Assembly: GCF_009937955.1 (NCBI RefSeq)
Contig: NZ_AP018439.1
Location: forward strand, 6,448,001 to 6,512,000
Origin: Undibacterium sp. KW1
Lineage (GTDB): Bacteria; Pseudomonadota; Gammaproteobacteria; Burkholderiales; Burkholderiaceae_D
Direction of reading: 5' to 3'
DNA: 64,000 nt
The position numbers and the translations under genes were made by a program. Below the pieces are notes generated by a model. The model was given only the letters and a program-made list of their open reading frames with translations. It was not told where the DNA came from and did not search any database. Of this stretch, positions 34,564 through 44,054 are shown piece by piece (within the stretch, counting starts at the first letter, position 1; every line of letters starts with the position of its first letter).

Positions 34564-34899
34564 TTCTCTAGATAGCGGCCAACAGCTATTCGGCGAATAG
34601 GCGCAAGTGACTGAATTTCACCAGCACATTCGGCGTAGGCGAAGTATTGCTGAATTGGTACATTATCACAAGTGTGGATATGAAATTTTCTATGCTGCAT
34701 TAATGTGCGTTGATAAGCTACTAAGACGCGTTCACACTAACAGTAGAGCTTCAAAATATCTATGAATTCTTCGTAAAAGCAATGATTTTGAATTCGAAAA
34801 TTAACTCGTCTTGTAAATTGATGCGAAATGGAATTGAAAAAGTTACGGTTTTTAATCGCATTGTTATTGTAAATAATGTAACAACAATGTATTCGCGAG
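34564..34899. other. A+T-rich region with no gene
   Basis: About 340 bases between the SPFH start and the IS30-family element. Base composition changes here from balanced to clearly A+T-rich, which I take as the left margin of the accessory island. No ORF with a ribosome site is seen. Confidence 0.6.
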
Positions 34900-35972
34900 T
34901 TCAAATAAGAAGTGCAACAGAAGCTAAATTGGTTTGAATGGGAAGATGCGGTAGCATCCGAACTTCCAGACCCCCAAGTCAAAGTTGCCCGAAATGACAT
35001 ACACACATCTTACCCAAGAAGAACGATACCAGATTTATATACTGAAGAAGGCAGGACATAGGCAAAGTGAGATAGCAGAGGTGATGGGGCGTAGCAGATC
35101 GACGATCAGTCGAGAGATCAAACGCAATAGTGGTGGTCGTGGATACCGCCCAAAACAGGCTCAACAACGCAGTCTCGACAAGCAAGCCAGAAAGAATGGT
35201 GTGACTATTTCCGCTGAGACATGGGCATTTGCAGAAGACAGGTTGAGAGCGTATTGGAGCCCGGAACAGATCAGCGGCTATCTCCGTGCCAATGCTCTTC
35301 CTGGAGTGAGTCACGAAAGCATTTATTGGCGAATCTATGCGGACAAGCAACGAGGTGGCACGTTACACAAAACCTTGCGCTGCCAGAAGATACGCAAGAA
35401 GCGCTATGGAAATCGTGAACGACGCGGCACCATACTCAACCAGATTTCGATTGAAGAGCGCCCAGCGATTGTGGACACGCTCAAGCGCTATGGGGACTGG
35501 GAGGGTGATCTTGTTGTCGGCGCGAATCACCAGCAAGCGCTGGTCACGCTCAATGAGCGCAAATCGCGCTACACCTTGCTAGAAAAAGTGACCCGCAAAA
35601 CTGCTGAGGCGGTGACGGATACCATTATCTCTTTGCTAGCGCCTTTTTCTGAATTAGTGCATACGTTGACGACCGACAATGGTAAGGAATTTGCTCAGCA
35701 TGAACGTATTGCTCAGAGCCTCAATGTGCAGTATTTCTTTGCCCATCCTTATTGCTCTTGGGAGCGCGGCGCTAACGAAAACATGAATGGTTTAATACGG
35801 CAGTTTTTTCCGAAGAAAATGTGTTTTGAATCTATCACAACGCAAGACATGACTGACGCTATGGACTACTTGAATCATCGACCTAGAAAATGTCTTGGCT
35901 ACAAAACACCGCACGAAGTTTTTATGGCTCAGATACAATCGCACTAACACAGGGTTGCACTTCGAGCTTGAA
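34900..35972 (+). mobile_element. IS30-family insertion sequence, apparently complete
   Basis: About 1073 bases, normal for the family. The imperfect terminal inverted repeats share TTCAA at the tips and GAAGTGCAAC nine bases in (34900-34918 and the complement of 35954-35972) at identical spacing. One transposase ORF fills it. No convincing target duplication is seen, though IS30 elements make only 2-3 bases. Confidence 0.85.
34994..35947 (+). CDS. IS30-family transposase
   Basis: A 317-residue DDE transposase. The N-terminal helix-turn-helix is HLTQEERYQIYILKKAGHRQ with EIAEVMGRSRSTISREIKRN, the hallmark of IS30. The catalytic residues are in GDWEGDLVVGA (first Asp), LTTDNGKEF (second Asp) and WERGANENMNGLIRQFFPK (Glu), followed by the typical LNHRPRKCLGYKTPHEVF. 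All are intact. I start at the ATG at 34994; a TTG at 34985 is in frame. Confidence 0.93.
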   Translation: MTYTHLTQEERYQIYILKKAGHRQSEIAEVMGRSRSTISREIKRNSGGRGYRPKQAQQRSLDKQARKNGVTISAETWAFAEDRLRAYWSPEQISGYLRANALPGVSHESIYWRIYADKQRGGTLHKTLRCQKIRKKRYGNRERRGTILNQISIEERPAIVDTLKRYGDWEGDLVVGANHQQALVTLNERKSRYTLLEKVTRKTAEAVTDTIISLLAPFSELVHTLTTDNGKEFAQHERIAQSLNVQYFFAHPYCSWERGANENMNGLIRQFFPKKMCFESITTQDMTDAMDYLNHRPRKCLGYKTPHEVFMAQIQSH

Positions 35973-36089
35973 TCCGCCATTTTCTATAAAATGGTACTCG
36001 AAAGATTTAAGAATACGAAAATATCGAACATTAAGTCCTAAGAGAAATTGACTTGCTTCAATACTGAGTTGCAGTAGTAAATATTAGGA

Positions 36090-39000
36090 ATGCACAATAT
36101 GATCAGAAGCGATGCAAAGTTAAGACCCATTTTTCCTGGCGCTTTATATGACGATTGGATAGTGAGTCATTTCCCAACATTTCAAAAAGAAAATCGCCGT
36201 ACACAAGATACACATGTGTTCATCGATTTTAGTAGTTGTGAATGGGTATCACCCCTTCCATTGCTTGCAATAGCAACAGAACTGATGTCATTCTCTTTGC
36301 CGGGAAGATTTATAGATATTAATCTTGGTGATGGCGTGAGTAGTGATATAGGTGCTGCTGCTAGAGCGAGAACAAGGAAATTTTTGCTGTTGCACGGTTT
36401 TCTGGATGCATTTACAAGCAGAAAAGATCTTTGTGTCCGGTTTCAATTTGACCCCACGGATGAAAGTGGTGAATCTGGTTGTTGGTGGGAGACGGGTGCA
36501 AATTTTACGTCACTTAAGGAACATATTGAGAAGTCTAAAGGTGATTTGCTGTATGGCACAACTATAGTTTTAACCGCGACAACTTGGGAATTGCCAAGTA
36601 GTAGGGATAAGGATCTATCAGCAAAAATTAGAATGCAGGTCGCACGATTGCTTCGTCAAGCGGACTCTGCATTATTTAAATTCAAAACCGAGGCGAGAAA
36701 ATACCGCGATGTAACTCTTCAGAGATTGAATCAAACTCTCTTGGAATTAGTCGAGAATGCCGCTGAACACGGATATCTCGATTCAAACACAGGTTACGTT
36801 GGATTGTATGCACGAGTACGCCAGACGGAATCAGAGGTGGCATCAGCAAGTAGACGAATGGAGATGATTAAATCTCCTTTGCTAGGCAATTTATTACTTA
36901 GTGAAAAACAGCATCAAATTGAAGTTTTTGTCGTTGATGTGGGGCGAGGTTTGCTCGCGGATGTTGCTGCTTGGCGAGATGCCGATTCAGTAATTTACTC
37001 TCAACAACCTTTGCGGCATTTAGGTTCTCAATTGTTTCGCCGCCCCTTGTCTAGGCATGATCGGTCTGACATCGCAGTAGAGCGGCAGCGCGGTAGTTCG
37101 ACAGGTTTGATGCATCTTGATCGTTTATTAGGACACTACAATGACGTTACGCGAATCGTAACTGGTCATGAATGGATAGCGGGACCTCACCCAAGGCCTA
37201 AAGGGTTTCACGCCGATACTATCTCTACTGGAGGATATAAAGCTCAGCCAGATGCAATACTTGGTACATTTTTCCACATCGGCATTAGCTCTGCTGAAAT
37301 TCCGCGCATGAGCGAAAAATGGTTTGCTTCTGATGAGATTTCGAATGCCCACATTAGGAATTCCGTTTTAAAAAAATTTTCCCAGTTATCAAAGGATGCG
37401 ACACTTTTTCAATTAAAGAATCATGTTATTGACATAAGAAGTGAATTGGGTTTGGATAGTGTTCACTCAAAGATAATAGAAACTGCGAAAGAATATTCAG
37501 AAACCATTGTTAGAGTAAATAGAGTATCGGAAAAAAATCTCATCATCACGATGCTTTTCTCTTGGTTCGAAGGAATAGGAAAATCAACACAAAATAATTC
37601 AACACTGTTTTTATGTGATCTTGGTCGATTTCAAGCTGTTGACGTCGTATGGGTTCTTGAAAATTTTTTGGGGAAAAATTCAAGATTTAGTTTAAAAAAT
37701 GTCCCAGATGATACTAAGATATTTTTGGTAACGGAGGATTTATGCTGCTTGCAATTTTCGGTTCATTTTAAAGATATCGGAAATGAAAAATATAAAGTTT
37801 CAATTGATGTCGCATCTAATCAAAATGAGTTGGAGGATCAGCTAGTTTATGTGTTGGAAAATCTTCGATTACGTGATTCGGAGACGCTTTGGAAACGTAT
37901 TTCAGAATTAAAAGATAAGAATTTGGCAAATCCGATTATTGTTGAAGATGTTTTGTGGGATATTTCAGCAAGTTTTATACTGCCATACTATTTAAATTTC
38001 TCAGTACTTGTTCAAGACACTGAGGCAGCTAGATGTGTGCGAAGGGCGCTTCGTCGCTTGTTAGCTTTGTTCCCTGATGCAAACGATCATGCTCTTGATA
38101 GTTTGGTTGGTCCGTCGCTTCATGATGCGAAAAAGTGGTTGGTTCGCCCAATTAAAGAAACTAACTCACAAGTTCTTGTTGGTAGTTTATCTGTATCAGG
38201 CACTACTCTGAAAAGGTACAGAGGTGCCCCAAAGGTGCATATTGCTGGAGTAATTGATTGCATACAAGCTCCCTACTTTGATTTAAACAACAACGAAGGT
38301 GATGTTCTTCATGTAGCTGCGCTTTTGTGGGATCCGTTATTTATTAAATCTGATCGGAAAAAAAGCCCCGCACGCTTCAGGAGATTGGGAAAAACGGCAT
38401 TTGTCGAGCCAATTAGAGGAGGATATGAAGCGGTTGCTGCGGTATACGACGAGAATCTATACAAGGAAATCGAGTTCACAAATTTGATTAAACTTGGTCA
38501 CTGGTCGTATGGTGATAGGCACAGTTTATTGGACATAAACGCGGAGCTTGCAATTGAACAGTCTGGAGCCAGTGAATCCGGTGCAATTCCTTGGATATCA
38601 GCTCAACTTACAGAAATATGTAAGAGTCGTCCGGTCGTATTAGTCTTTCCAGTAGATAAACTAGCATATCGCTTAGCACATCATGTAGAGAGGCGAATTG
38701 AAAGATCTATTAATGGGCATGATGGTTTTTCGATTTTGCCAATTTCGTTCTTGCCTCGATTTGCAGGAGGTATGACTCGATTTGCTCCGCTTGTATTTGA
38801 AGCTGCGAAAAAACTCGCTAAACCAGTCGATAAGAAAGTACCGTTAGCAGTATTCCTAAACTTTGGATTTATAACTAACCGAACTCTAAGGCATGTTGTG
38901 CGTCAGTTATATGACGCAGGTTTTGATGAGGTCAGGGCAATGGGGTTGTTGAACAGGTCGTCTACTCCAGTACTAAATATTGAATTAAAACGTGATTTCG

Positions 39001-40667
39001 AAACATCAGGAAATATGACGATTCCGCAAACTTATTGGAGGTGGAATGTCCCGACGTTAGGAACAGGCAATCATTGCTTTCTTTGCTCTGCGTTACCAGC
39101 GCTTGGTAGATTAAGGCGTGTAGTAGACGAGGCCCATTCTGATTTGCTAATGCCACTTGAGCGAATTGGACGAGAGTGGTTGCCAAGAGATGTAGCAGAT
39201 TTTTGGGAAGAATTCGGTTTAAGTCCTTTGTCTTTATCCCATGAGTTTATTGCAGAGTTAGAGCCAATCTTTGCAAGGATTGAGTTTGAGAATTTTCCGT
39301 CTAATTCAACAACGTTAACTGCTAGGCTCATTGAACATATCCGCGCAACTGGAGATACTGAGCTTCCACTAAAAGTGGTGGATAAATTACTTCTTATAAA
39401 TGGAAGTGAGTGTGCGACAGAAGTACTATCTACAATCTTAGCTCTAGCAGGAGGAAATTTTGCTGCTTCTGATTTGCATGATTATGTAGCGCTTCTCTCT
39501 GAGTCTGCAATTCAATTAGGTGCTGTTCCTTTTGTTGAAGATACTATTGATCGTTGTGCTAGGTTACTTGGATTAGTTTCGCTTGTATTTTCTATTCAGA
39601 GCAAGACGTGCAAGCTCGCAGTATTAACTCAACTTTGTGAAAAACTAAAAGTGGTTAAGATATTGGATGCAACTGAACTTAGAATTGCTCTGCTGGCGTT
39701 GACAACTGATTCAGATGAGTCAAATGAAGTTCAAGACGAATTTCGTAAACAATGTTTAGAGGTGCACACAACTGAATTACTAGTTCGGAATTACCACTCA
39801 ATTCGCCCAACAAAAGGTACCGCAAGAGACTCTTGGGATAAATTGACTCAAGCATTTGGTCGTTCAGGAAGTCATAGTCAAACTTCAGTATTTGGAAAAT
39901 TAGTCGCTGAATTATCACGTTCACTGGAACCAAAGAAGATATACATGTACATTGATCATATCGGTAGTTTACTTGGACAATGTGACCAAAGTTTTGTGAT
40001 GGACTGCTTGGGGATTGACTTACGACTTGTGATCAATGGAACTTTAAAAATTTCTGATGAGTCAAAAAATATTAATACAACGGCGGCTAATTTATTGAAA
40101 TCCATTCATTTAACTTATGAGGAGGCAATACATAAACTTCATAATACTCTTATGAGATTCGGTGATCGAGTTTCACCGTTAGTTTGTGTTCTTTTTTACG
40201 ACATGTTAAAAGAGCAAACTACCGAAAATGGGCTGATTTTGACGAAAGACATAGTTTTCTCAAAGTATGCGTTAACGTGTGAATGGCCCACAAATGTGAG
40301 TGGCTATTTTCCACTTTGCCAGCATGTTAAAACTCTATTTTGCGAAATATTTTCAAATGTTGCCGGGAAAAGCATACTTGCACCTCCACCTAGGTGTGAG
40401 CCCGAATTTTGTGATTTAAATGAGAGTGCTAAAGGGTGGCTTAGATTTGATATGCAAAGAGAGCAAGTAAGTCGTGGCATTACTTTGATTTTAGTGACTG
40501 GTGTTGAAAAAAATAAACTTATTTCTAAGTATGTTCCTAAAGTTCGCGGCCTCGATGAATTCGGAGTCGTGGTGACGTCTCAAATTATTTCATCAAATGA
40601 TTATCAATATTTTGAAGTGCGCGTAAGAATTCCTTCACTTGCGGATATTATTTTGGAGAAGCCATGA
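36090..40667 (+). CDS. 1525-residue protein with STAS-like, GHKL ATPase and PRTase-like parts
   Basis: A very large protein I cannot assign to a named family. Residues about 42-75 look like a STAS-type strand-helix (VFIDFSSCEWVSPLPLLAIA). A GHKL ATPase follows: N-box LLELVENAAEHG (Asn223), G1 box VVDVGRG (Asp283) and G2-like RGSSTGLMHL (about 334-343). Residues 694-710 (QVLVGSLSVSGTTLKRY) and a later stretch near 930 (VFLNFGFITNRTLRHVVRQL) both resemble the phosphoribosyltransferase PRPP loop, in degenerate form. The last about 500 residues look all-helical. There is no signal peptide or clear membrane helix. The gene is A+T-rich and overlaps the next by 4 bases. Confidence 0.85.
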   Translation: MHNMIRSDAKLRPIFPGALYDDWIVSHFPTFQKENRRTQDTHVFIDFSSCEWVSPLPLLAIATELMSFSLPGRFIDINLGDGVSSDIGAAARARTRKFLLLHGFLDAFTSRKDLCVRFQFDPTDESGESGCWWETGANFTSLKEHIEKSKGDLLYGTTIVLTATTWELPSSRDKDLSAKIRMQVARLLRQADSALFKFKTEARKYRDVTLQRLNQTLLELVENAAEHGYLDSNTGYVGLYARVRQTESEVASASRRMEMIKSPLLGNLLLSEKQHQIEVFVVDVGRGLLADVAAWRDADSVIYSQQPLRHLGSQLFRRPLSRHDRSDIAVERQRGSSTGLMHLDRLLGHYNDVTRIVTGHEWIAGPHPRPKGFHADTISTGGYKAQPDAILGTFFHIGISSAEIPRMSEKWFASDEISNAHIRNSVLKKFSQLSKDATLFQLKNHVIDIRSELGLDSVHSKIIETAKEYSETIVRVNRVSEKNLIITMLFSWFEGIGKSTQNNSTLFLCDLGRFQAVDVVWVLENFLGKNSRFSLKNVPDDTKIFLVTEDLCCLQFSVHFKDIGNEKYKVSIDVASNQNELEDQLVYVLENLRLRDSETLWKRISELKDKNLANPIIVEDVLWDISASFILPYYLNFSVLVQDTEAARCVRRALRRLLALFPDANDHALDSLVGPSLHDAKKWLVRPIKETNSQVLVGSLSVSGTTLKRYRGAPKVHIAGVIDCIQAPYFDLNNNEGDVLHVAALLWDPLFIKSDRKKSPARFRRLGKTAFVEPIRGGYEAVAAVYDENLYKEIEFTNLIKLGHWSYGDRHSLLDINAELAIEQSGASESGAIPWISAQLTEICKSRPVVLVFPVDKLAYRLAHHVERRIERSINGHDGFSILPISFLPRFAGGMTRFAPLVFEAAKKLAKPVDKKVPLAVFLNFGFITNRTLRHVVRQLYDAGFDEVRAMGLLNRSSTPVLNIELKRDFETSGNMTIPQTYWRWNVPTLGTGNHCFLCSALPALGRLRRVVDEAHSDLLMPLERIGREWLPRDVADFWEEFGLSPLSLSHEFIAELEPIFARIEFENFPSNSTTLTARLIEHIRATGDTELPLKVVDKLLLINGSECATEVLSTILALAGGNFAASDLHDYVALLSESAIQLGAVPFVEDTIDRCARLLGLVSLVFSIQSKTCKLAVLTQLCEKLKVVKILDATELRIALLALTTDSDESNEVQDEFRKQCLEVHTTELLVRNYHSIRPTKGTARDSWDKLTQAFGRSGSHSQTSVFGKLVAELSRSLEPKKIYMYIDHIGSLLGQCDQSFVMDCLGIDLRLVINGTLKISDESKNINTTAANLLKSIHLTYEEAIHKLHNTLMRFGDRVSPLVCVLFYDMLKEQTTENGLILTKDIVFSKYALTCEWPTNVSGYFPLCQHVKTLFCEIFSNVAGKSILAPPPRCEPEFCDLNESAKGWLRFDMQREQVSRGITLILVTGVEKNKLISKYVPKVRGLDEFGVVVTSQIISSNDYQYFEVRVRIPSLADIILEKP

Positions 40668-42181
40668 ATCAATTTAACAATAAGCAAGTTCTAGTTTTAG
40701 TTATTGATGATCAGTTGGTTACAGATAGCGACGATACCAGCCGAAAAGAAAAATATTCAAAGTGTTTGGATCTCATTAATAAGGCTTTAGCCGGGAAATG
40801 GACGCTAGAGATTTGTTTTTGTCCAGATTTAGGCTCTTTGGCTGCAATAAAAACCTTTCCTGGGCAACCAAGACTCGCAATTGTGGATATGGTTTTAGAT
40901 GGGCCAAAGTGGACTTCTCAAGCAGTCGAAAAATTGGACTTAAAACTTCTCTCTGAGCACTGGCCTTTAATTTTGGTAAGTGCACATTTTGGTGCCGATG
41001 AGGCGATTGCTCGCGCAAATAAGCTTGTTGTTGGCGACGGGAGTGGCACAGGTGCGCCATCGCAATTTTTAATGTGGTCTGCTATAGCGCGATCTGTAGA
41101 TGGAATTGATATTGATGATTTGGCATTTATTTTTGATTCAATACTGTCGCGATCGCATGGACAAGACCTTTTATTTCGTAAAGGACCAGATGAGCCAATA
41201 GATATCTTGCATATTACGGACCCACATTTTGGTCGGGCCCAATGGGATGTCGGTTCGTTAATGACGCTTCGCGTTGCGAGGTCAACTGTAGGGTTGGAAG
41301 CTGCCGATTTTTTGGCAATTACAGGAGATATTGCCGATCAAGGAACCCCGGAGCAATATAAATTGTCGTTGGCGTATTTTCGTGCTCTAGCCAATAATAA
41401 TGTGGTGACTCGATCCGATACGGGATTACCTCGTGATAGAGTTTTTCTTTGCCCAGGAAATCATGATTTTTCTCGGAGAATTGCTTTAGGAGCAAATATT
41501 AGCGGGAAAGACAAATTCACAGTTAAAGAGTCTGGTGATGTCGAAAATGAATGGGTTCGGTCATATGCTTGGGAGCCTTACGTTCAGTTCGAAGCTGAGA
41601 TCGCGGGGCATTCAGATAGATGGATACCTTCGCCAGGGTACAGGATAAATTCGCGATTTTCGAGTGCTGGGATTATTATTTTAGAACTGAATGTTGAGCG
41701 ATATGACATTCAGCAATACCAAAAAGGATTGTCCGATGATGAAATACGACAGTCTTTAAATCAAGCGGCTACAGATGTGCTGAAAATACGCCACTCGAAA
41801 GAATGTGTCATTGTTCTTGCACACCGGCATGAAGATTCTGGATGGAACACTCTTGCACATATAATCAACAATACTCTTACGGGGCTTGCTGCTGACGGAC
41901 CAGTTTTGATGATGTGTGGCCACGAACATAATGAGAAAGTGCGATCTGAGTTAGATGACAAAGTACTTTTGGTAAGAGGGGTTCCGCCTGTCGAAGGAGC
42001 AACTCTCCCTTCTAGTGTTTTACCAATAGTGAACTGTGTTCGATTGTTGCGAAAAGATGGTGTTGTCGATGGTGTTGAAGTGCATCAATTCCATCAAAGC
42101 GCGTCTGGTTGGCTTGTCAATAACAGTGGGAGTAAGAAATATGAACACCATCGTGGAGCGTGGAGACTCAATTCTAATTAG
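40664..42181 (+). CDS. Receiver-like domain fused to calcineurin-type metallophosphoesterase
   Basis: A 505-residue two-domain protein. Residues 1 to about 165 look like a response-regulator receiver: acidic pair Asp15/Asp16 in LVIDDQ, a candidate phospho-acceptor Asp75 in AIVDMVLDG, and Ser106 in ILVSAHF. From about 178 there is a full calcineurin-like phosphoesterase: DPHFGR (Asp186, His188), ITGDIADQG (Asp222), CPGNHDF (Asn266, His267), VLAHRHE and CGHEHNE (His420, His422), so all metal ligands are present. The substrate may be nucleic acid, nucleotide or protein. The ATGA overlap with the upstream GHKL gene suggests one functional unit. It is A+T-rich like its partner. Confidence 0.88.
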   Translation: MNQFNNKQVLVLVIDDQLVTDSDDTSRKEKYSKCLDLINKALAGKWTLEICFCPDLGSLAAIKTFPGQPRLAIVDMVLDGPKWTSQAVEKLDLKLLSEHWPLILVSAHFGADEAIARANKLVVGDGSGTGAPSQFLMWSAIARSVDGIDIDDLAFIFDSILSRSHGQDLLFRKGPDEPIDILHITDPHFGRAQWDVGSLMTLRVARSTVGLEAADFLAITGDIADQGTPEQYKLSLAYFRALANNNVVTRSDTGLPRDRVFLCPGNHDFSRRIALGANISGKDKFTVKESGDVENEWVRSYAWEPYVQFEAEIAGHSDRWIPSPGYRINSRFSSAGIIILELNVERYDIQQYQKGLSDDEIRQSLNQAATDVLKIRHSKECVIVLAHRHEDSGWNTLAHIINNTLTGLAADGPVLMMCGHEHNEKVRSELDDKVLLVRGVPPVEGATLPSSVLPIVNCVRLLRKDGVVDGVEVHQFHQSASGWLVNNSGSKKYEHHRGAWRLNSN

Positions 42182-42324
42182 CTAAATTTTAGAGAAGAGC
42201 TTCATTTTTAAGGGATTTTTATTTGAATCTTTGATGTTCATATAGATGATATTCTTGTGATATTGGGTGTAGTTGATTATTTTAATTGTTCTAACAAATT
42301 AGAGAATTTTGTGTGAACTTAGAT

Positions 42325-43560
42325 CTAGAATTTTGATCGATTCGCCTCAATGACTTTGCCCACCATCGCCAATGTCTTTTTCGAGATAGGCAAATCCCTT
42401 GCCGCATTCTTGAAATCAACACCAGTAATTAACTCCAGCATCTCATCGATAATATTTTGCGCGTCTTTTTCTTTCATTCCACAGTCTTGCGCCACTTTCA
42501 AAATGTGTACCCGCGTTGGTGATTTACCTTCACCAGCGACATCCATGAAATGCTCACCGCGATAACCGGCGCAATACGTCAGATCATAGGATGGGGCGAG
42601 TTCCCATTCATTGTTTTTGTTGAGCAGGTAAGACAGGTTTTTTGCGTGGTCATCGCGGTTGTTCATCAATACGTTAAAAACGCAACGTTGTAAGGCTTTT
42701 TTTAATTCTCGCGCATCCCTAGTCAGCCTGCGGGTTGCTCGCATGAATTCGCTATAGCCTAAAGAGGGTATCTGGAAATGAACGTGCAACATGCCTGCCA
42801 GTGAGTGGACGTGGATGCGTTGCTCATTATCGCGGTCAAAACGTTTGGTGCCGAATGCTGTCATACCGTCTGGTAATTCAAAGAATTGCGTTTCACCCAT
42901 GCCGAGGCCGCATTTGCGCGCCAGCCGGGCATACAGTTCTTCCAGTGCACAGCTATCGCTGGCATCGTCTTTTGCCGGAAATTTAATGAGCCAGGATTCT
43001 GCATCTGGCATGTATTCAGTGCTCATTTTCCCTGTCGCAGGCTGGTAGTAAACCAGTGCCTTCGGTCGTGCACCGCCGGGTGAGCCACCTGCCTTGGCAA
43101 GCTCGTCCAATACTTCATAGCTGTCATCTGTGAGTATTGCCTGAACCTCTTTCGCCAGATCGATCAGGGCAAGATCGCTGACTGCCAGATGGGTTTCGCT
43201 GCCGGGTTCATAGGTCAATGCTCCCATGGTGTTGTCGCCAAGATAGGCGAGCATGTCCAGCACGGAGACAGTGTCGGTATCTATGCCTTTGGCTTTCATG
43301 CGGCGGCTCATCAACTGCAAGCCCCAACTGTCGGGCAAGGAGTCGTAGATTAATCCTGGCACGCGCATGATAGGCAGGTAATCTGCCTGTTTGTCAGGGT
43401 AGGCAGATGACCGCAGTGGCAAGCGTATGGGAGATAGTTCCAGGCCACTTGCGAGTGCTGCTGGCGAATACTGGAACAAGATATCGCGGCCATCATCGGC
43501 CAGTGTACCCAGCCAAAGCGACTCGCCTTGCGCCTTGTAATTGACCTTGAGCTCTTTCAT
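42325..43560 (-). CDS. hipA: HipA-family serine/threonine kinase toxin
   Basis: A 411-residue HipA-type toxin kinase. The N-subdomain opens with LWLGTLADDGRDILFQYSP and GLIYDSLPDSWG; the kinase core includes the catalytic NNRDDHAKNLSYLL and the metal-binding LAPSYDLTYC. A Gly/Ser-rich loop AGGSPGGARPKALVY fits the nucleotide-binding P-loop-like motif. In the Escherichia coli system HipA phosphorylates glutamyl-tRNA synthetase; the target here is not known. It overlaps the antitoxin gene by 4 bases. Confidence 0.9.
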   Translation of the reverse strand: MKELKVNYKAQGESLWLGTLADDGRDILFQYSPAALASGLELSPIRLPLRSSAYPDKQADYLPIMRVPGLIYDSLPDSWGLQLMSRRMKAKGIDTDTVSVLDMLAYLGDNTMGALTYEPGSETHLAVSDLALIDLAKEVQAILTDDSYEVLDELAKAGGSPGGARPKALVYYQPATGKMSTEYMPDAESWLIKFPAKDDASDSCALEELYARLARKCGLGMGETQFFELPDGMTAFGTKRFDRDNEQRIHVHSLAGMLHVHFQIPSLGYSEFMRATRRLTRDARELKKALQRCVFNVLMNNRDDHAKNLSYLLNKNNEWELAPSYDLTYCAGYRGEHFMDVAGEGKSPTRVHILKVAQDCGMKEKDAQNIIDEMLELITGVDFKNAARDLPISKKTLAMVGKVIEANRSKF

Positions 43561-43874
43561 GATGGGCTCTTCGGTTTGCGATACGCCCGCTGCCTGGCTT
43601 GCACTGCAGACTTTGCCCGCATCTCTTCTATGGTATTGGTTTGCGGCACCAGAACTGTCTGCAAATCTGGCGTGGCATTCAGTGATTCAAGTATGCGGAC
43701 AAAATTGGCCAGAGTGCATTTGCCAGTGCGTTCAAAGCTGCTGACAGTTTGGGCAGAGATGCCTGTGCGTTGCGCCAATTCTTCTACGCTGATGTTCAAC
43801 AGCAAGCGTCGTTCGCGTGCACGTTCGCCGAGATTGAGGCAAATCTCATCAGGTAAGAGTAAGGAGAAATCCAT
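43557..43874 (-). CDS. hipB: HipB-type antitoxin, XRE helix-turn-helix
   Basis: A 105-residue DNA-binding antitoxin. The helix-turn-helix is LNISVEELAQRTGISAQTVS followed by SFERTGKCTL. It precedes hipA with an ATGA overlap and has AAGGAG-rich sequence just inside its start. It normally binds HipA and represses its own promoter. The promoter region upstream (43875-43930) is A+T-rich, and I see TAGATTA/TAGATAATCTA-like inverted motifs there that could be the operator. Confidence 0.88.
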   Translation of the reverse strand: MDFSLLLPDEICLNLGERARERRLLLNISVEELAQRTGISAQTVSSFERTGKCTLANFVRILESLNATPDLQTVLVPQTNTIEEMRAKSAVQARQRAYRKPKSPS

Positions 43875-44054
43875 TGGTTTTATATAGATTAAGGTTAGAT
43901 AATCTAACTTTCCAATAGAATTATACTGGTTATGGTCTTGATATAGGCTTATTTTTTGAGCAGAATGCCCTGTAAAATGTTGCTTTTTGATTAGCCCCCA
44001 TCCTCGTTATGACAAGAATGAGGGTATTTGTAGCATGGGATTCGGAGAGTTAAC

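Follow-up and report, generated by a model that had tools for sequence, protein, structure and literature searches.

A coupled gene pair in Undibacterium sp. KW1

In Undibacterium sp. KW1, two overlapping genes, named here P1 and P2, were analysed as a candidate mobile anti-phage system. They lie in a stretch of 64,000 nt of contig NZ_AP018439.1, hereafter the window, to which all coordinates refer. The main contig measures 6.56 Mb in a genome totalling 6.69 Mb, and the window lies close to its end. P1 encodes a large protein with a GHKL domain and phosphoribosyltransferase (PRTase)-like regions, and P2 encodes a receiver-like domain fused to a calcineurin-like phosphodiesterase (Table 1). Both open reading frames (ORFs), together with the ATGA by which they overlap, had been described in an original prediction made from the DNA letters, and they are present as claimed. 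At 40% G+C, the chance of a stop-free frame is about 1e-43 for P1 and about 6e-15 for P2; lengths so far beyond chance mark both as real genes. For P1, an alternative start with better spacing may be Met4, at 36099. The A+T-rich island noted in the same prediction is also evident, as the G+C content of the insert (35978-42333) is 40.1%, whereas 91 overlapping window stretches of the insert's length average 52.2% (standard deviation 1.5, minimum 48.0).

Table 1. Position of the gene pair, its predicted domains and the surrounding insert within the window.
Feature	Coordinates	Strand	Remarks
Accessory insert, compared with other genomes of the genus	34678..42333	.	left breakpoint ~34677, right 42316-42333
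IS30-family element, left edge of insert	34895..35977	+	transposase 34985-35947; ends set at imperfect 24-nt inverted repeats
P1, large GHKL/PRTase-like protein, 1525 aa	36090..40667	+	ORF list, homologues
STAS-like region, P1 residues 20-128	36147..36473	+	invariant Trp52-x-x-Pro-Leu-Pro; weak assignment
GHKL ATPase/kinase domain, SpoIIAB type, P1 residues 157-404	36558..37301	+
First PRTase-like segment, VLVGSLSVSGTTL, P1 residues 640-770	38007..38399	+	hhalign P=0.038
Second PRTase domain, P1 residues 788-988	38451..39053	+	window has NF for DD of the phosphoribosyl pyrophosphate (PRPP) loop
WRWxVPxLGxxxxCxLC motif of P1	39036..39086	+	Trp983/Trp985/Cys996/Cys999 invariant in aligned rows
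P1 C-terminal part, fold not assigned	39222..40664	+	sequence profiles only
ATGA, P1 stop / P2 start overlap	40664..40667	+	4 nt
P2, receiver-phosphodiesterase protein, 505 aa	40664..42181	+	ORF list, 7-row alignment
Atypical receiver, P2 residues 7-165	40682..41158	+	D15, D16, D75, S106; Trp138 at Lys position
Calcineurin-like phosphodiesterase, P2 residues 179-480	41198..42103	+	SMPDL3A/ASM/GpdQ/Rv0805-like fold

Nine loci were compared: the window, U. amnicola (G132), Denitromonas ohlonensis, metagenome-assembled genomes (MAGs) of Magnetococcales (G632), Sphingomonadales and Desulfobulbaceae, and the genomes G759, G1140 and G1184. P1 was found in 2 of 195 family genomes (KW1 itself and G132), in 1 of 399 order genomes (KW1), in 4 of 398 phylum genomes (KW1, G632, G759 and one weak match) and in 5 of 369 class genomes (KW1, G1140, G1184 and two weak matches), while a scan of genome contigs gave five loci (the three MAGs, Denitromonas ohlonensis and U. 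amnicola). These genome sets overlap, so the counts are not additive, and the weak matches (G754, G1120 and G1248; E 6.2e-4 to 7.5e-4) were excluded from the nine. At all nine loci the start of P2 overlaps the end of P1 by 4 nt (ATGA seven times, GTGA twice); the two genes form a conserved, translationally coupled pair. No third gene common to the ORF lists of these loci was seen by inspection, some of the contigs ending nearby. Searches for the window P1 and P2 and for the P1 of locus L010 gave no useful plasmid match, and with the L010 P2 only two weak matches to phosphoesterases were obtained. Phages yielded no useful match to the L010 P1; searches of viral contigs and single-sequence searches of the PDB were likewise unproductive.

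Domains and residues of P1 and P2

The GHKL domain of P1 is best aligned with SpoIIAB. Its N and G boxes are intact, and residues E219, N223, H227, D283, G285, G287, T338 and G339 are invariant, which for P1 means conserved in all aligned rows covering the position. It is a domain of the anti-sigma-factor kinase type and not a histidine-kinase core. A HisKA-type Pfam match was absent from nine P1 rows (seven loci) up to E 0.5 at the sequence level, and with the SpoIIAB-type GHKL domain this led to the rejection of a sensory histidine-kinase reading of P1. Among the features first singled out in P1, Asn223, Asp283 and the TG of the GSSTG motif (335-339) are invariant, and GSS is kept in the nearest relatives only.

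Regions of P1 and P2 were compared by hhalign with reference profiles drawn from 14 of 27 HATPase loci, 5 of 115 receiver matches, all 8 PRTase matches and all 5 STAS matches. The STAS-like region gave a non-significant value (P=0.10) that was the top of its row, with a sensible register. Two degenerate PRTase-like segments had been proposed. This description fits the first, which misses the acidic pair in every aligned row, and it fits the second in the window clade, where the pair is lost (NF or DF); it does not extend to the second domain in general, whose DDGxxTG loop is intact in four of the seven aligned loci. When G1184 (DDGxxTG) and G1140 (DDGxxSG) are included by eye, the acidic pair is present in six of the nine loci. 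The second PRTase is of the PyrR/HGPRT fold. In the last 130 residues of P1, there is a hint of a second, degenerate GHKL domain (hhalign P=0.029 only).

In P2, the earlier identification of a calcineurin-type phosphoesterase was borne out. Metallophos (PF00149) is matched at 9.4e-11 in the window and in all seven aligned rows, and seven residues, Asp186, Asp222, Asn266, His267, His389, His420 and His422, are invariant (7/7), with His188 replaced by Gln in two rows. The best profile match is GpdQ (6e-6), followed by SbcD (7.6e-5). By Foldseek the domain is nearest to SMPDL3A (E 1.3e-8, TM 0.37-0.46). Ranked by Z, the top match is a YydB chain from a YydD-YydB model (21.0), ahead of acid sphingomyelinase, GpdQ and SMPDL3A (~16-18); Mre11/SbcD rank lower (13-14.5).

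The residues first assigned to the receiver, Asp15, Asp16, Asp75 and Ser106, are present and invariant in all seven rows, and the lysine of ordinary receivers is missing: its position holds Trp in six rows and Phe in one. By eye, the Asp-Asp, Asp, Ser and Trp positions are present in the P2 of G1184 and G1140 too. In the P2 model (predicted local distance difference test, pLDDT, 73), residues 8-164 adopt a full alternating beta-alpha receiver-like fold, in which Asp75 ends strand 3 and Ser106 ends strand 4, and a fold search returned the receivers 3kto and 3hdv (target TM 0.64 and 0.67; E 0.011 and 0.058). A second structure search barely probed the receiver, since phosphodiesterase matches filled its list. 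P2 is not among the 115 ordinary receiver matches of the same genome. P2 is an atypical, lysine-less receiver, assigned mainly from the structural model, fused to an SMPDL3A/GpdQ-like phosphodiesterase.

Mobility, transfer and neighbourhood

The IS30-family element and P1-P2 are both absent at this site from four relatives (G187, G954, G959 and G966). In G187 and G954, HipBA occupies the site together with different small cargo; the stretch examined in G959 and G966 contained no match to HipBA. HipBA was rejected as part of the system, given that two relatives carry it without the pair, and its proximity, which had been put forward in favour of a defence function, is for the same reason a weak argument.

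Flanked by a Band-7/SPFH gene on one side and an MFS transporter gene on the other, this site (window 34677-44049 and L038-L041) is a cargo hotspot in the genus: different species have HipBA, IS30 with P1-P2, and two or more further small genes there. Near the same site, at a contig end of G977, L042 6350-6476 matches the right end of the window IS30 at 97% identity.

A small integrase element was found in U. amnicola. There, tRNA-Leu(taa) and nadA are separated by about 8.7 kb that contain a tyrosine integrase, P1 and P2 and nothing else, which suggests that the pair moves alone. This element is flanked by a 13-nt direct repeat, located next to the tRNA in sequence resembling a terminator; in 200 shuffles a repeat of 13 never occurred and one of 12 occurred once. 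tRNA-Leu sequence stands directly beside nadA in 6 of 29 other genus loci (G165, G951, G969, G119, G085 and G176), and ARAGORN calls the tRNA in all four of these that were submitted. At 22 of the 29, no tRNA-Leu match was found beside nadA within 1.5 kb, and G949 has a partial match. In G949 (L046 1320-1459), sequence resembling the junction of integrase and tRNA in the U. amnicola element lies directly beside nadA; ARAGORN finds no tRNA-Leu in it, and an element remnant is possible. G759 has the order tRNA-Ser, tyrosine integrase and P1-P2.

The copies of U. amnicola and Denitromonas are 81.3 and 80.3% identical in pieces of P1 and 79.5% in P2, whereas those of the window and U. amnicola are 49-53% identical. 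With about 80% identity to the Denitromonas copy and about 50% to the window copy, the U. amnicola genes show a relationship that disagrees with that of the species. P1-P2 has been transferred horizontally between distant bacteria. Between the two close copies, U. amnicola and Denitromonas, the ratio of nonsynonymous to synonymous substitution rates (dN/dS) is 0.12-0.14, the P1 value coming from pieces of a broken copy, and the pair is under purifying selection.

A probable defence neighbourhood is that of G1184. On the contig that bears the N-terminal piece of its P1, Abi_alpha (2.3e-9) and an FRG protein (6.6e-27; PDC-S15) adjoin, and beside the same piece are SngC, SngB and SngA (5.8e-276, 3.5e-181 and 8.6e-90), the genes of Shango. 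On the other contig, an AAA/STAND-like ATPase gene lies behind P2 (L123 3845-5191) and might belong to the system or to an island; the two contigs likely form one locus. Around the Desulfobulbaceae copy, a DNA methylase, an SNF2-type helicase and one weak match of HerA type make up a defence context that is suggestive only; the PADLOC matches of the neighbours in L014 (mad2, mad8, DpdE and ZorD) are partial and were excluded from this context. The Sphingomonadales copy adjoins DNA polymerase III alpha-type and IMS-type genes, the G1140 copy adjoins HslVU (by eye), and the Magnetococcales (10.9 kb) and Denitromonas (6.5 kb) contigs show nothing further. Taken together, four of the nine loci (window, U. 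amnicola, G759 and G1184) have a mobile or probable defence context, one is ambiguous and four show no such context. The homologues are not restricted to housekeeping contexts.

A candidate anti-phage system, its relatives and alternatives

PADLOC 2.0.0 was searched with the P1 of seven loci and the P2 of the window, L012, L013, L014 and L123, and NCBIfam 20.0 with the P1 of seven loci and the P2 of the window. Neither set gave a full-length match to P1 or P2, in agreement with the original claim that no described anti-phage system has this combination. In PADLOC, P1 had no match above noise and P2 had domain matches only (PDC-S60 and an Effector model). No paper describing the pair was found in a literature search whose range excluded figures, supplements and most subscription papers.

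The closest likeness of the effector is to DS-8 and DS-9, which are the best NCBIfam matches of the window P2 (1.9e-8 and 1.1e-8, over ~90 residues) and lie far below the cut-offs of these models (34.3 of 420 bits and 32.6 of 790 bits). The metallophosphatase residues of both are reported to be essential for protection, and DS-8 to resemble human SMPDL3A (PMC13092281), the fold that P2 is predicted to share. The text consulted presents DS-8 as one protein with NACHT and DS-9 as paired with an HAD phosphatase, and mentions no receiver or GHKL/PRTase partner (PMC13092281); conversely, Pfam finds neither a NACHT domain nor an HAD partner in P1 or P2. The legend of Fig. 6F lists HATPase and REC among predicted systems (PMC13092281), possibly the same domain pair as in P1-P2, to judge from the words of that legend.

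For the sensor, the nearest comparison is CapK of CapK/CapS, described as a STAS-GHKL kinase that is activated by single-stranded DNA and phosphorylates a STAS-domain partner, CapK being tied to immune operons and VapK to a toxin-antitoxin locus, VapK/VapS/VapC (PMC13373217). P1 shares with these the anti-sigma-factor-type GHKL domain, and may have a STAS domain before it, to which the weakly assigned STAS-like region would correspond. It differs in having a receiver-phosphodiesterase and not a STAS-domain substrate as its partner, and in adding PRTase-like domains and a long C-terminal part. The first half of P1 may be of the same kind as CapK.

As far as logic is concerned, Detocs is the closest. 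It comprises three genes, with a true histidine kinase, the receiver-type DtcB and a nucleoside/nucleotide phosphorylase effector. The likeness consists of a GHKL-domain sensor and a receiver-fused effector enzyme, the receiver of P2 being fused to Metallophos in all seven rows. P1-P2 differs in having two genes, a SpoIIAB-type GHKL domain with no HisKA match, a calcineurin-like phosphodiesterase as effector and a receiver without lysine; the histidine kinase, phosphorylase and third gene of Detocs were not found here, and the original prediction too had held that Detocs differs in layout. The two-component relay that had been suggested for the pair is weakened, and a classical one is not supported, in view of the missing HisKA match, the GHKL domain nearest SpoIIAB and the missing receiver lysine.

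The reading that we favour, and which we hold to be the best single account and somewhat more probable than not, is that P1-P2 is a mobile two-gene anti-phage system in which a signal from P1 releases the P2 phosphodiesterase. It builds on the coupled pair, the computed domain folds, catalytic residues that are intact in both the GHKL and the phosphodiesterase domain, selection, transfer and the mobile context. We infer from these a defence role, with its cue, direct signalling from P1 to P2, substrate and outcome, along the following lines. P1 would serve as sensor and regulator, with its SpoIIAB-type GHKL domain binding ATP. An infection cue, perhaps a nucleic acid or a nucleotide change, would be detected by the STAS-like, PRTase-like or other large regions of P1, which would then alter its state or phosphorylate a target. 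The signal would arrive at the P2 receiver and release the fused SMPDL3A/GpdQ-like phosphodiesterase, which would hydrolyse a phosphodiester, a nucleotide or another, that phage or host requires. A defence role by whatever mechanism is very likely, and mobile defence is the best explanation of a system that is probably undescribed. Direct phosphorylation of P2 Asp75 has lower odds than the signalling model as a whole.

Several observations weigh against this reading. The P1 model is poor (pLDDT 55) and without a Foldseek match at 0.001. Response_reg is weak in three of the seven P2 rows (best E 0.066), the receiver reaches hhalign P values of 0.031 (global) and 0.11 (local), and in the local comparison an 11-column match to a PRTase profile (0.024) beats the receiver profile. 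Phosphorylation of Asp75 is doubtful, since the lysine is missing from the receiver and no phospho-histidine domain is recognised in P1. A frame change breaks P1 in three of the nine loci (U. amnicola, G759 and G1140), P2 is also broken in G1140, and in G1184 P1 is incomplete, with an N-terminal 140-residue and a C-terminal 709-residue frame on two contigs; the other five (window, Denitromonas, Magnetococcales, Sphingomonadales and Desulfobulbaceae) have an unbroken P1. In addition, the Sng cluster and the P2 of G1184 are on separate contigs and hence only probable neighbours, and four of the nine loci show neither mobile nor defence context, the contigs of two of these four measuring 6.5 and 10.9 kb. 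Overall, the defence function first proposed is strengthened.

The frame changes lie at three different places (L005 7912-7960, L011 10094-10218 and L122 5834-5907). Decay, phase variation and assembly error are all possible; as the break sites differ between loci, decay or assembly error is likelier, and programmed frameshifting was rejected on the same ground. In G1184 (L124 1-478 and L123 1-75), each frame is stop-closed near the contig end and the middle was not found in the search, which an insertion within P1 might explain.

Defence could also proceed by a nucleotide second messenger in place of a phospho-relay, P2 not killing but removing a signal, or the P1 PRTase making a nucleotide signal that P2 binds or destroys, an account that we regard as unlikely. 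It would suit the PyrR/HGPRT fold, the PRPP-loop motif intact in four of seven loci, and a P2 fold close to SMPDL3A, GpdQ and Rv0805, enzymes that act on nucleotides or small phosphodiesters. Divergent receivers, in addition, have been proposed as cyclic-phosphate-processing domains (cRec, PMC7824862). However, the window clade has lost the acidic pair, so synthesis by the P1 PRTase is not general to the family, and a Pfam scan of P2, made with a set in which the presence of a cRec model was unchecked, lists Metallophos, Response_reg and Metallophos_2 only. More doubtful still is a defence nuclease, in which P1 would sense DNA like CapK and P2 would cut phage DNA as an SbcD/Mre11-like enzyme. 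The P2 match to SbcD agrees with it, although behind that to GpdQ, and the invariant Trp52 of the STAS-like region is loosely comparable to Trp68 of CapK (PMC13373217).

It is slightly less probable again that the pair is mobile and regulatory without being defensive, as a stress-signalling or element-maintaining module. The U. amnicola element has no cargo besides P1-P2, and mobile cargo can be selfish; the four loci devoid of context, and the incomplete P1 that the defence neighbourhood of G1184 adjoins, point the same way. Nevertheless, at 1525 aa P1 does not resemble the small antitoxins generally known, and the variable site, the Sng/FRG/Abi neighbourhood and the DS-8/DS-9-like enzyme suit defence better.

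Within the known sensor-plus-effector kind of defence, P1-P2 would be a new architecture. Whether it amounts to a new defence family, where an anti-sigma-factor-type kinase and PRTase-like nucleotide-sensing domains would control an SMPDL3A-like phosphodiesterase through a lysine-less receiver and with no histidine kinase, is a more tentative matter, which we consider conceivable and short of probable. If true, SpoIIAB-type kinases with PRTase-like sensors would govern a receiver-gated phosphodiesterase, and the pair would bear on the substrates of SMPDL3A-like enzymes in bacterial defence, on sensing by PRTase-like domains and on lysine-less receivers as switches or binding domains. In humans, the SMPDL3A-like group degrades cyclic GMP-AMP (cGAMP).

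Some further likenesses are limited to single domains. With PDC-S60, a PADLOC candidate, the P2 of G1184 shares its whole phosphodiesterase (7.5e-13, residues 159-468), and the window P2 matches it over residues 180-273 (7.8e-8); the model has 1027 positions, of which the match covers the first 300 only. P1 homologues match PRTase models weakly, and in this one domain only, with ShosT at 0.0047 in two of nine rows and ComF, a ComF/PyrR-type PRTase, at 0.0026 in one of nine. Upstream of the Sphingomonadales copy (L013 2985-8110), lasso-peptide-maturation-like genes, asparagine synthase-like and small protease-like, were recognised by eye.

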